64,000 bases of DNA from Gammaproteobacteria bacterium (GTDB lineage Bacteria > Pseudomonadota > Gammaproteobacteria > Xanthomonadales > SZUA-36), in the NCBI GenBank assembly GCA_030426265.1, contig JAUHYP010000007.1:1-64000 (forward strand). Direction: 5' to 3'. Shown here piece after piece: positions 6,746 through 10,649 of the stretch. The position numbers and the translations under genes were made by a program. Numbering within the stretch: the first letter of the stretch is position 1; every line of letters starts with the position of its first letter. The notes beneath the pieces are model-generated. The model did no database searches and was not told the origin of the DNA. It saw only the letters and a list, made by a program, of their open reading frames with translations.

Positions 6746-7315
6746 TCAGTCCTTGACGCGGGAGACGTACTCGCCGGTGCGCGTATCGACCTTGATCACC
6801 TCGCCTTCCTGAACGAACAGCGGAACACGCACCACCGCTCCGGATTCCAGCGTTGCGGGCTTGCCGCCACTGCCGGAGGTGTCGCCCTTGAGGCCCGGAT
6901 CGGTCTCGACAATCTTCATTTCAGTGAACTTTGGAGGCAGAACGCTGATCGGACGTCCATCGAGCAGGGTCACGTTGCACAGGTCCTCTTCTTTCATCCA
7001 CTGCGCGCCGTCACCCACCATGTCCTTGCTGATGGCGTATTGCTCGAAGGTTCCGGGGTGCATGAAGTGCCACTCCGTGCCGTCGTTGTAGAGATATTGA
7101 ACGTCGGTCTCGAACACATCCGCGGCCTGCACGGACTCGCCGGACTTGAACGTGCGTTCGATGACCCGACCGGTGAGCAGGTTGCGAACCTTGACCCGGT
7201 TGAAGGCCTGGCCTTTGCCGGGTTTGACGAACTCGTTTTCGACGATGTTGTAAGGATCGCCATCGATGATGATCTTCAAACCGCCACGAAATTCGTTAGT
7301 ACTGTATGAGGCCAT
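6746..7315 (-). CDS. efp: Elongation factor P
   Basis: EF-P relieves ribosome stalling at polyproline. The 189-residue protein has the usual three-domain length, and the tip of domain I reads KPGKG with Lys34 in the position that EpmA/EpmB beta-lysylate in E. coli. The Lys34 version, rather than Arg32, predicts an EpmAB-type modification system elsewhere. The start MASYSTNEF (ATG at 7315) is fixed by homologues; the frame continues upstream but that part is intergenic. It heads a minus-strand operon with mtaD and ubiG, an uncommon partner set for efp. Confidence 0.96.
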
Positions 7316-7509
7316 GAAAAGCTCCGCTGAATCGGCTGTTGCACCCCCGGCGTCGGTTCGGTGACTGGACCCTGGGGCCGGGGAATATCCGCGCATCATA
7401 GCGTGAAGCCCGTTTCGGTTCAGCCTGTCATACCAAGGAACGGCGGCTTGGGTCATAATTCGCGTTCCGGCCCGCCGGAACCAACTTAGGTAAGTTATCA
7501 ACTAATTTA

Positions 7510-7571: not shown

Positions 7572-9752
7572 GTGCCGCCTGACAGTCCGTACCTGTTGGT
7601 CGTCGACCCCCACCCGGAGAGCGCGGCTCGCATCAACAGCCTGCTGCGCAATTCAGGAATTACTGTTCACGTGTTGCACGCGGACAATGAACCTGAGGCG
7701 CAACGCCTGGCCGGCGAGTACGCGCCGTTCCTGATCTATTACCTGCCGGCCAGCCAGGAGCGCTTCCCCGTGGATGCCGCCGCGCGCCTGGCGGAATCAC
7801 GCCAGACCTTTCTCGGTGTGTCCCTTCCCGAGGGAGGCGATGCCCTCTTCGCCGAGGCCGCAGGCTCAGCCGCCTGCATCGGCATCGGCAGTGAAGAACA
7901 GTTACCGGCCATTGCCCAGCGGCTCCAGAGCCTGGGCCAGGCGGTACGCGAGCAGGATCGGCTGAAGGCCCAGGAAGCCGAACTCGAAGACCGGTTGCAT
8001 CTGCTGCTCAACAGCACGCGCGAACCGATCGCCTATTTCCATGAAGGGCTGCACGTCGCGGCCAACCAGGCCTATCTCGAACTGATGGGCGCTGCCGATT
8101 TCGAGACGCTCGCCAGCGTCTCCCTGCTGGAAATCCTCGAAAAGGACGGCTGGGACCTCAAGGCCATGGTGCGCGGATTCAGCCGCGAGGAATATCCGGC
8201 AGATGGCGAGACCTTCCGCCTGCGCCCGCCCGGCCGGGAGCCCATGACTGCGCCGCTGGTGTTCGCTCCGATCCGCTACGAGGGCGAGGCCTGCGTGCAG
8301 ATGGTCGTGCGCCAGGCGAGCGCGCCGGCGAACATGCCCGAGACCACTGCCCAGGGTTCCAGCGAATCACCATCGACCGGCGCTCCCCGGGAGGAAGGCG
8401 AGGCGTCCGAGGTTCGGGCGGACCAGGAAGCCGCGGCAGCCGCAGAGCCGTCGAACGACTCCCCTGCAACGGTGGCTGCAACGAATGCCCCGTCCTCGGC
8501 CGGATCTTCCAGCCCCGACACCGACCCCCTGACCGGCATGCTCTGGCGCGGCGCCTTCCTGCGGCGACTCAATGAGCGTCTGAACCACATGCCGGACGAT
8601 GGCCGCGCCGGTGTCCTATTCGTGGGTCACGACGGCGCCAACGAGCAGCTCGACGAATTGCTGGTCGCCGACTTCGACCGCTACGTGCGCTTTGCGGCCG
8701 ATGAAGTGCTGAGCTGCCTCGACGACGACGACGAAGTCTGCCGCATCAATGACTGGAGCTTCGCCGTGTTCGCCGTTCGCCCGGACAAGCCCAGCCTGAA
8801 GCGGCTCGGCGAGAAGCTTTGCGCCGGCGTTTCCCGCCAGGCGCAGGACCGCCCCGACGAGCCCCTGCCCCGCAGCGCCAGTGTCGGACTGGTTTTGCTG
8901 GACCGCGCGCACCACGATGCCGACCACACCCTCGAAAACGCCCGTGCCGCCTGGCGCGTCGCCGCGAAAACCGGCAACACCGTCGTGCGCTTCAAGCCGG
9001 CGCGCTTCGCGGGCATTTCCGAAGACGAGGAAACCCGTTGGCGCGACCGTTTGCGCTACGCGCTGGACAACGAGGATTTCTTCACCGTCCAGCACTCGAT
9101 CATGAATCTGGACGGCGGCCTGGAAGGCCTGGTGGAAAACCGCACCTTCATGCACGAGGACGACGGCGACGTCGCCGCCCCGGAGTACCTGCCCGCCGCC
9201 GAGCGCAACCAGCTCGCCAGCCAGGTCGACCGGCTGGTGATCCCCGGTCTGCTCCGGGCCGTGGCCGGGGGCGAAGACCGCCAGATCATCGAGATCAGTG
9301 GCAACTCGGTGCAGGATTTCAGCTTCCCGACCTGGTTCCACCGCACGCTGCAGGAAACCCGCATCCCGGGCCAGCGCGTCGTGCTCCAGTGGCCGGCATG
9401 GGCGGCCCGTCAGCAGACCAAGGCGGCCCGGCGCCTGATCGAGGAACTCGCGCCCCTGGGCGTGAAATTCTCGCTGTCAGGCTTCGATGCCGAAGCCCGG
9501 ACCCTGGAATTGCTGACAGAATTGAAGATCCAGTTTCTCACCCTGGACCGTGAGCTGACCGACGACCTGGAACGCGATCCCACCCGGCTCGACCAGATTC
9601 GCGACATCGTGCGCGCAGCGGACGAACTCGAGGTGCTGACCGTCGCCAGCGAGGTCGCAACACCGGGCGACCTGGCCATACTCTGGCGAGGTGGCGTGAA
9701 GCTGGTTTCCGGCGAATTCCTGCAGGACACGCCCCGCGTCATCGGCCAGTAG
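7572..9752 (+). CDS. FimX-like degenerate REC-PAS-GGDEF-EAL protein
   Basis: The 726-residue protein has the FimX domain order: receiver-like (about 7-120), short coiled coil, PAS (about 142-245), an Ala/Ser/Glu linker (246-317), a GGDEF-like domain starting DPLTGMLWRGAF (318-478) and an EAL-like domain (about 485-720). Every catalytic signature is lost: the receiver lacks the phosphoacceptor Asp (LIYYLPA), GGDEF reads NDWSF (393-397), EAL is replaced within LVENRTF, DDFG reads SGFD, and AEGVE reads ASEVA. FimX proteins bind c-di-GMP without turning it over and control type IV pilus extension with PilZ/PilB, so I infer a receptor role. The start is GTG with GGAG upstream. Confidence 0.82.
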   Translation: MPPDSPYLLVVDPHPESAARINSLLRNSGITVHVLHADNEPEAQRLAGEYAPFLIYYLPASQERFPVDAAARLAESRQTFLGVSLPEGGDALFAEAAGSAACIGIGSEEQLPAIAQRLQSLGQAVREQDRLKAQEAELEDRLHLLLNSTREPIAYFHEGLHVAANQAYLELMGAADFETLASVSLLEILEKDGWDLKAMVRGFSREEYPADGETFRLRPPGREPMTAPLVFAPIRYEGEACVQMVVRQASAPANMPETTAQGSSESPSTGAPREEGEASEVRADQEAAAAAEPSNDSPATVAATNAPSSAGSSSPDTDPLTGMLWRGAFLRRLNERLNHMPDDGRAGVLFVGHDGANEQLDELLVADFDRYVRFAADEVLSCLDDDDEVCRINDWSFAVFAVRPDKPSLKRLGEKLCAGVSRQAQDRPDEPLPRSASVGLVLLDRAHHDADHTLENARAAWRVAAKTGNTVVRFKPARFAGISEDEETRWRDRLRYALDNEDFFTVQHSIMNLDGGLEGLVENRTFMHEDDGDVAAPEYLPAAERNQLASQVDRLVIPGLLRAVAGGEDRQIIEISGNSVQDFSFPTWFHRTLQETRIPGQRVVLQWPAWAARQQTKAARRLIEELAPLGVKFSLSGFDAEARTLELLTELKIQFLTLDRELTDDLERDPTRLDQIRDIVRAADELEVLTVASEVATPGDLAILWRGGVKLVSGEFLQDTPRVIGQ

Positions 9753-10649
9753 GTGCCCCGCGGGTCCTACACCGGGCGATTCGCCCCCTCCCCCACCGGC
9801 GACCTTCATTTCGGCTCCCTCGTGGCGGCCGTGGGCAGTTTCCTGCAGGCCCGCGCGCACGGCGGGCGCTGGCTGGTTCGTATCGAAGATCTGGACCCGC
9901 CGCGCGAGGTGCCCGGCAGCGCGGAGCGCATCCTCGAAGACCTTGAACGCTTCCAGCTTTCTCCCGACGAGACCGTGGTCTGGCAGGGAACGCGACGCGC
10001 GGCGCACGAGGCGGCGCTGGACCAGCTCGCGGCCGCCGGCCTGCTGTTTCCCTGCGCCTGTACCCGGGCCGAGCTGCCCCCCGGACCCTATCCCGGCACC
10101 TGCCGCGAGGGCCTTCCGCCGGGCCGGAAAGGACGAGCGCTGCGGGTCCGCGTACCGGGTGACCCCATCCGCTTCGTCGATGGCGTCCAGGGCCCGGTGT
10201 CCGAGTCGCTCGCTGAATGTTGCGGCGACTTCGTGGTTCGCCGGGCCGACGGGCTGGTCGCCTACCAGCTGGCCGTGGTGGTCGACGACGCCTGGCAGGG
10301 CGTGACGGAAATCGTGCGTGGCGCCGACCTGCTCGATTCAACGCCGCGCCAGGTGTTCCTGCAGCGCGCCCTGGGGCTTCCCACGCCCAGCTACCTTCAC
10401 CTGCCACTGGCACGGGACCCGGAGGGACGCAAGCTGAGCAAATCCCTGGGCGCCGATCCCGTGCGCTCGATGCCCCCGCTCGACGCGCTCGGCGCAGCCC
10501 TGGCCTTCCTGGGTCACGCGCCCCCGCCGCACGGGGACCTGGAAGCACGCTGGGCCTGGGCGCGCGAGCACTGGGACGCCGGACGCGTACCCCGCGAGGG
10601 CGGCGCCGTTTTCGGCGCCGACGGGCAGGCGGTATACTCCCCCGCGTGA
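9753..10649 (+). CDS. gluQ: Glutamyl-Q tRNA(Asp) synthetase
   Basis: The 298-residue protein is a truncated glutamyl-tRNA synthetase catalytic core, matching GluQRS, which attaches glutamate to queuosine in the anticodon of tRNA-Asp. [17 protein letters not shown] contains the HIGH-type motif, the zinc ligands appear in PCACTR and GTCRE, and KLSKS is the second class I motif. The anticodon-binding domain of GluRS is absent, as expected. The GTG start directly abuts the TAG of the FimX-like gene, so the two are probably co-transcribed. Confidence 0.93.
10633..10638 (+). promoter_or_regulatory. Possible -10 element before accA
   Basis: TATACT lies inside the last codons of gluQ. No good -35 is visible at the standard distance (the best is weak). 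A start point about seven bases on would fall at 10645-10646, giving accA a leader of about 40 bases. Inference from sequence only. Confidence 0.3.

Follow-up and report, generated by a model that had tools for sequence, protein, structure and literature searches.

The gene at positions 7572 to 9752 of the window (the whole stretch of 64,000 nucleotides that was analysed) is, as judged from its matches and its locus, a true orthologue of fimX. It is found in a family that appears, from the domain content of its genomes, to have lost the machinery for synthesis and breakdown of c-di-GMP. We consider it fairly probable that this FimX is independent of c-di-GMP and has a structural role within the PilB-PilZ complex for pilus extension. 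The features on which the argument draws are as follows.

6746..7501, minus strand: presumably efp (named from its sequence), conserved divergent upstream neighbour (synteny)
7572..9752, plus strand: fimX orthologue, 726 aa, REC-PAS-linker-GGDEF-EAL (Pfam, PDB matches, synteny, model, fold match)
7572..7922, plus strand: receiver-like domain without phosphoacceptor Asp, aa 1-117 (alignment, model)
7980..8336, plus strand: PAS domain, aa 137-255 (profile alignment with FimX, model secondary structure)
8322..8510, plus strand: disordered linker between PAS and GGDEF, aa 251-313, pLDDT below 50 (AlphaFold2 model)
8520..8975, plus strand: degenerate GGDEF domain, aa 317-468 (Pfam, GGDEF searches)
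8748..8762, plus strand: NDWSF replacing GGDEF, aa 393-397 (alignment)
9021..9731, plus strand: EAL domain, aa 484-720 (Pfam; fold match to 3hv8, TMt 0.85, Z 28.6)
9039..9041, plus strand: Trp490, equal to W445 of X. citri FimX (PilZ contact), invariant in the family (alignment)
9135..9149, plus strand: ENRTF replacing ExLxR, aa 522-526 (alignments including profile-profile)
9477..9488, plus strand: SGFD, aa 636-639, equivalent of the DDFG loop (alignment)
9645..9659, plus strand: ASEVA, aa 692-696, with Glu694 at the position of the guanine-stacking Phe652 (alignments, PMC3527489)
9753..10649, plus strand: gluQ (tRNA glutamyl-Q synthetase), conserved downstream neighbour (NF004314, E 7.9e-111; synteny)

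The open reading frame has a GTG start that aligns with those of its relatives. Pfam placed an EAL domain at residues 492-717 (E 3.6e-30) and a weak GGDEF domain at 317-468 (E 1.9e-7); Response_reg gave no match in the window protein itself and matched three of 20 family members, and the PAS model matched seven of the 20. The REC-PAS-GGDEF-EAL architecture of about 700 residues is present, and the profile alignment with FimX extends over 675 columns (E 3.2e-131). The top four PDB sequence matches by E-value were FimX (4f3h is titled FimXEAL). In an AlphaFold2 model of the window protein, built from 20 family sequences (mean pLDDT 82.2), the EAL part matched the P. aeruginosa FimX EAL domain with c-di-GMP (3hv8) with an rmsd of 2.5 over 235 residues; the EAL domain of RbdA ties with it as a fold match (Z 29.0). 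A match to phrog_11823 (PHROGs, unknown function) adds nothing. At 726 aa the window protein exceeds most of the family (674-700 aa) by about 50 aa, and its long disordered linker lies at 8322-8510.

The first-pass annotation had called the protein FimX-like, and the PDB matches and the conserved efp/fimX-gluQ-accA synteny bear this out. Its observation that fimX is joined to gluQ was also right: the TAG stop is followed without a gap by the GTG of gluQ at 9753. However, gluQ is not the odd partner it was taken for. In all sufficiently long loci of the family, and in Wenzhouxiangellaceae loci, efp lies divergently upstream and gluQ-accA-tilS downstream of fimX. A functional partnership with gluQ was rejected, since gluQ is a conserved neighbour that is spaced about 0.6-1 kb from fimX at loci L051 and L144 and at the family locus L045. 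A guess that this gap holds a dksA gene found no support. At loci L046 and L047 (genus g8) a lysine-aminomutase-like frame, which we take to be EpmB, lies between efp and fimX. In a FimX tree of 64 of the 90 rows from the order (26 dropped, P. aeruginosa and X. citri left out, contact columns masked), the window's family (24 rows, support 96) and Wenzhouxiangellaceae (24 rows, support 95) are sister groups, with the other families outside. Both synteny and tree agree with vertical descent, and the window gene can be regarded as the ancestral fimX at its ancestral position.

The joint loss of four signatures had been considered unusual in this protein, a view that found no support. It is correct that the receiver is without phosphoacceptor Asp and that the GG[DE]EF motif of active diguanylate cyclases is replaced by NDWSF. 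However, a missing receiver Asp and a degenerate GGDEF domain are common to all aligned FimX rows, and the former is stated for the FimX receiver in PMC11656802. The losses in REC and GGDEF were thus rejected as something unusual, and only the EAL change is special.

GGDEF, EAL, HD-GYP and PilZ domains were counted by six-frame searches, independent of annotation. In the window's family, 34 of 39 genomes had exactly one GGDEF, G061 had two and four had none; the single matches were FimX-sized frames at FimX match positions in the genomes covered by both searches. Exactly one EAL was present in 34 of 37 genomes and none in the other three. HD-GYP was found in none of the 37 family genomes and, in the same search, in 21 of 24 other genomes of the order. 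Twenty-three of these 24 carry 19-47 GGDEF and 7-25 EAL, the exception being G054 with one of each. Across 398 genomes of the order (98 genera), with the GGDEF-rich ones scored on nine candidates only, two or fewer GGDEF occurred only in the 39 family genomes and in nine of 43 Wenzhouxiangellaceae; all others have at least four. We infer that the cells of the window's family contain no c-di-GMP. The second GGDEF of G061 (L238, G061:C77), the only one among the 39 family genomes, is an intact GGEEF in a 1766-aa frame with a GC of 0.533, like the bin's own contig; the bin has 6% contamination.

Similar situations were seen elsewhere. Five of the nine low-GGDEF Wenzhouxiangellaceae genomes (low-GGDEF meaning two GGDEF or fewer) keep FimX (G054, G069, G070, G071 and G072), G070 together with a second GGDEF, and no FimX was found in the remaining four. 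In the Wenzhouxiangellaceae genomes G102 and G103 (98 and 95% complete), and also in G099 and G101, there was no GGDEF match and the FimX profile matches were weak and partial; by their domain content, these four are cases of total loss of the c-di-GMP network with its pilus receptor. A sample of 370 genomes of the class, each at least 90% complete, was scanned for GGDEF only, and it held one GGDEF in 21 genomes besides the window's and two in seven. Among these 28, FimX was full-length in G434, G528 and G626; in G562 (L248/L273) it is split over separate frames and apparently broken. Pfam confirmed the EAL domain in L247, L251 and L253, with GGDEF above the cut-off in L247 and below it in L251 and L253. 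Some Wenzhouxiangellaceae and two additional lineages (G434; the family of G528 and G626) therefore also have FimX without other GGDEF proteins. G434 (L247) has one GGDEF match and a FimX in which EALLRL is still present; its congener G560 (genus g135) has 35 first-look GGDEF candidates. The loss in G434 looks recent, as if this genome stood at an early point on the same route.

In the EAL domain, the strand E475-V-L-L-R479 of P. aeruginosa FimX corresponds to E522-N-R-T-F526 in the window protein, and SQFG, VPFVE and QG have become SGFD, ASEVA and SG. An independent profile-profile alignment placed the EAL residues identically. For P. aeruginosa FimX, PMC3527489 names L477, R479, D507, E654 and Y673 as contacts of c-di-GMP and describes F652 as stacked against guanine. 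At these five contacts the window protein has R, F, D, A and E, and at 652 it has E, so that D507 alone is kept among the five, along with the EAL glutamate. It also carries Q461H and K616T. The earlier statement that EAL is lost is thus right for ExLxR, which reads ENRTF, and wrong for its glutamate, and the reported changes of the DDFG and AEGVE loops are real, although S636 is kept. The suspicion that the c-di-GMP-binding features are gone applies to the key contacts but not to every EAL feature, because E522, D553 (D507 in P. aeruginosa), Q606 (Q565) and S636 (S595) are kept. The overlay on the FimX EAL-c-di-GMP complex, run as fold match and residue alignment, likewise found the key contacts changed but D507 kept. 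Neither ExLxR, which is called determinative for c-di-GMP binding in PMC10333796, nor an aromatic residue at 652 is present, and the protein is therefore classed as FimX by descent and not as an established c-di-GMP receptor. The features of an EAL phosphodiesterase (EAL motif, DD(F/G) metal site, other catalytic residues) are absent, with ENR, SGFD and ASEVA in their place.

These changes are not peculiar to the window gene, because R479 (P. aeruginosa numbering, used from here on for the pocket) is absent in all 35 FimX of the family. Among 116 FimX rows, it was found in none of five from low-GGDEF Wenzhouxiangellaceae, 31 of 32 from GGDEF-rich Wenzhouxiangellaceae, 16 of 18 from other families of the order and one of three from low-GGDEF genomes of the class (G434). 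In the same order of groups, beginning with the window's family, an aromatic residue (F, Y, W or H) at 652 was found in 0/35, 0/5, 0/32, 18/18 and 2/3, and ExLxR in 0/35, 0/5, 0/32, 14/18 and 1/3. R479 is present in 19 of 21 named FimX from elsewhere, taken irrespective of c-di-GMP-enzyme status, and both solved FimX have R479 and an aromatic 652. Within the family, E475 and D507 are kept in 35/35, Q565 in 34/35, Q461 in 29/35 and K/R616 in 31/35.

Taken as a set, the contact columns show no greater loss in the family than the remaining conserved columns of EAL (kept 0.556, n=7, versus 0.539, n=64; permutation p 0.54, with eight near-identical rows of 49 dropped from the reference set), so the case rests on positions 479, 652, 654 and 671, which were chosen for their function. 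For loss of R479 against loss of the network, just two independent pairs are available on the tree, and this link is therefore unable to reach significance. Since FimX of GGDEF-rich Wenzhouxiangellaceae has likewise lost the 652 aromatic and ExLxR (0/32 each), the pocket change does not require network loss. As reconstructed from the alignment, the loss of the 652 aromatic probably preceded the split between the family and Wenzhouxiangellaceae, in a lineage still with cyclases, and that of R479 probably came later, in cyclase-less lineages.

Purifying selection on the EAL domain is strong. Over 11 pairs and four domains, pN/pS was lowest in EAL in seven pairs and in PAS in the other four; EAL dN/dS was 0.04-0.13 in the eight of 11 pairs where it was computable. 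New residues have become fixed in the family, such as Q460 (34/35) and P512 (35/35), both 0/18 in other families. The change is patterned: Arg479 has mostly become Phe/Tyr and Phe652 mostly Glu, and Phe/Tyr-479 is paired with Glu/Asp-652 in 25 of the 35. The fixed residues and the 479/652 pair speak for a rebuilding of the pocket, and by its substitutions the EAL domain of the family is a case of maintenance plus change, not of decay.

The surroundings expected of a pilus complex are present in the host genome and incomplete across the family. The PilZ-contact Trp is found in 35/35 FimX of the family, 5/5 from low-GGDEF and 32/32 from GGDEF-rich Wenzhouxiangellaceae, 15/18 from other families and 1/3 from low-GGDEF genomes of the class. 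In X. citri, FimX binds PilZ and PilZ binds PilB (PMC8389850). The host PilZ matches X. citri PilZ with E 9.9e-43 and keeps both faces, with equivalents of I10, F49, L51, W69 and M117 (FimX- and PilB-facing positions from PMC8389850); pilB (811 bits), pilC and the prepilin peptidase gene lie side by side. Exactly one PilZ domain was found in 32 of 37 family genomes and none in five. PilB was above the curated cut-off in 23 of 37, namely 13 of 15 with up to 130 contigs and 10 of 22 with more. In the window's genus, G002, G003 (100% complete) and G004 have FimX and no PilB above the cut-off, with PilZ in G002 and G003 and none in G004; this may be an assembly gap or a real loss.

We therefore propose, by way of a model, that FimX was inherited vertically in a family that lost c-di-GMP synthesis and breakdown, and was retained because its structural job would need no ligand. 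The EAL barrel would dock via its conserved Trp face on a pilus PilZ that does not bind c-di-GMP, PilZ would hold PilB, and the complex would drive or place pilus extension; the REC/PAS/GGDEF part may provide dimerisation, positioning or another input. Since the old guanine site has changed in a pattern and was not left to decay, FimX is probably fixed in its working state, or switched into it without c-di-GMP. The absence of c-di-GMP binding, the PilB-PilZ-FimX complex and the pilus role in these bacteria are what we infer. Work on two other species bears on this model. In the X. citri complex, ATPase activity was unchanged by added c-di-GMP (PMC11656802). For P. aeruginosa, PMC12533971 proposes that FimX stimulates the extension driven by PilB, and a mutant with EVL changed to AAA neither binds c-di-GMP nor is active (PMC5595344), so the ligand matters there. 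The earlier idea of a c-di-GMP-free scaffold gains support from a family without nearly all c-di-GMP enzymes and from a tightly constrained EAL domain. More tentatively, FimX may have persisted after the loss of the other GGDEF proteins in no fewer than four separate lineages (the window's family, part of Wenzhouxiangellaceae, G434, and the family of G528 and G626), and in the window's family the pocket may have been rebuilt as a self-filled or new-ligand site (Phe/Tyr 479, Glu/Asp 652), turning a second-messenger receptor into a pilus-motor component that is constitutive or gated in another way.

The main rival is that the EAL pocket was re-tooled for another small molecule, either a metabolite or a nucleotide other than c-di-GMP, that now switches the pilus complex. 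The near-complete retention of E475, D507 and Q565 (35, 35 and 34 of 35), the family-fixed new residues with the 479/652 pair in 25/35, and the strong constraint on EAL would suit this. However, a structural role could account for the kept residues, the window protein has diverged still more (Q461H, K616T) and no result points to any ligand, so we regard it as unlikely. It is somewhat less likely still that c-di-GMP is bound in an altered mode and comes from a rare or undetected cyclase or from neighbours. The EAL domain of X. citri FimX, in which the motif is QAFLR, gave crystals with c-di-GMP (according to the titles of 4foj, 4fok and 4fou), D507 and E475 are kept, and an intact GGEEF occurs in one of the 39 genomes; on the other hand, R479 and the 652 aromatic, kept in both solved FimX, are gone in 35/35, and 38 of 39 genomes have no second GGDEF.

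A role in a process other than pilus extension is very improbable. Thirteen family genomes with FimX lack a PilB above the cut-off, but these are mostly fragmented assemblies, the Trp of the PilZ face is invariant and PilZ occurs in 32/37. Least credible of all is that the protein is a functionless relic in decay. Residues for catalysis and several for the ligand have been lost, no FimX match was obtained in three of 37 family genomes, and all GGDEF are gone in four Wenzhouxiangellaceae genomes. However, no internal stop occurs among the family FimX matches listed, and decay was rejected on the EAL dN/dS of 0.04-0.13.

The closest known counterparts of the window protein are two kinds of FimX, CsrD and LapD. 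FimX of Xanthomonas citri and X. campestris (7lkq, 4foj, 4f48, 4fou) shares the REC-PAS-GGDEF-EAL order, the degenerate GGDEF, the PilZ-contact Trp and the EAL fold (TMt 0.77-0.81), but has been crystallised with c-di-GMP and keeps Arg481 and a Phe matching F652, which in the window protein are replaced by Phe and Glu. P. aeruginosa FimX (3hv8, 4j40) shares the fold (Z 28.6), the EAL Glu, D507 and the missing receiver Asp, but keeps L477, R479, F652, E654 and Y673, has Val at the PilZ-contact Trp, and works in a c-di-GMP-using cell. An E. coli cell with CsrD still makes c-di-GMP. CsrD is also a GGDEF-EAL protein of the degenerate kind and, according to PMC10333796, works without c-di-GMP. It differs in its N-terminal domains and in its task, sRNA turnover. 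LapD is a degenerate GGDEF-EAL receptor that differs in controlling a periplasmic protease and has ExLxR listed as its binding motif (PMC10333796).

In the accessible parts of the open-licence PMC literature, no statement was found on FimX in bacteria without c-di-GMP enzymes, and the novelty is only as good as that search. The role of FimX in pilus extension beyond c-di-GMP sensing, and the cause of the difference in behaviour between the FimX proteins of X. citri and P. aeruginosa, are described as unclear (PMC11656802, PMC12533971). Bacteria with FimX but without the enzymes of the messenger would offer a natural separation of c-di-GMP sensing from the other role of FimX. What selection still keeps in them, the Trp of the PilZ face and the EAL and PAS cores, may point to the function that FimX performs without ligand.
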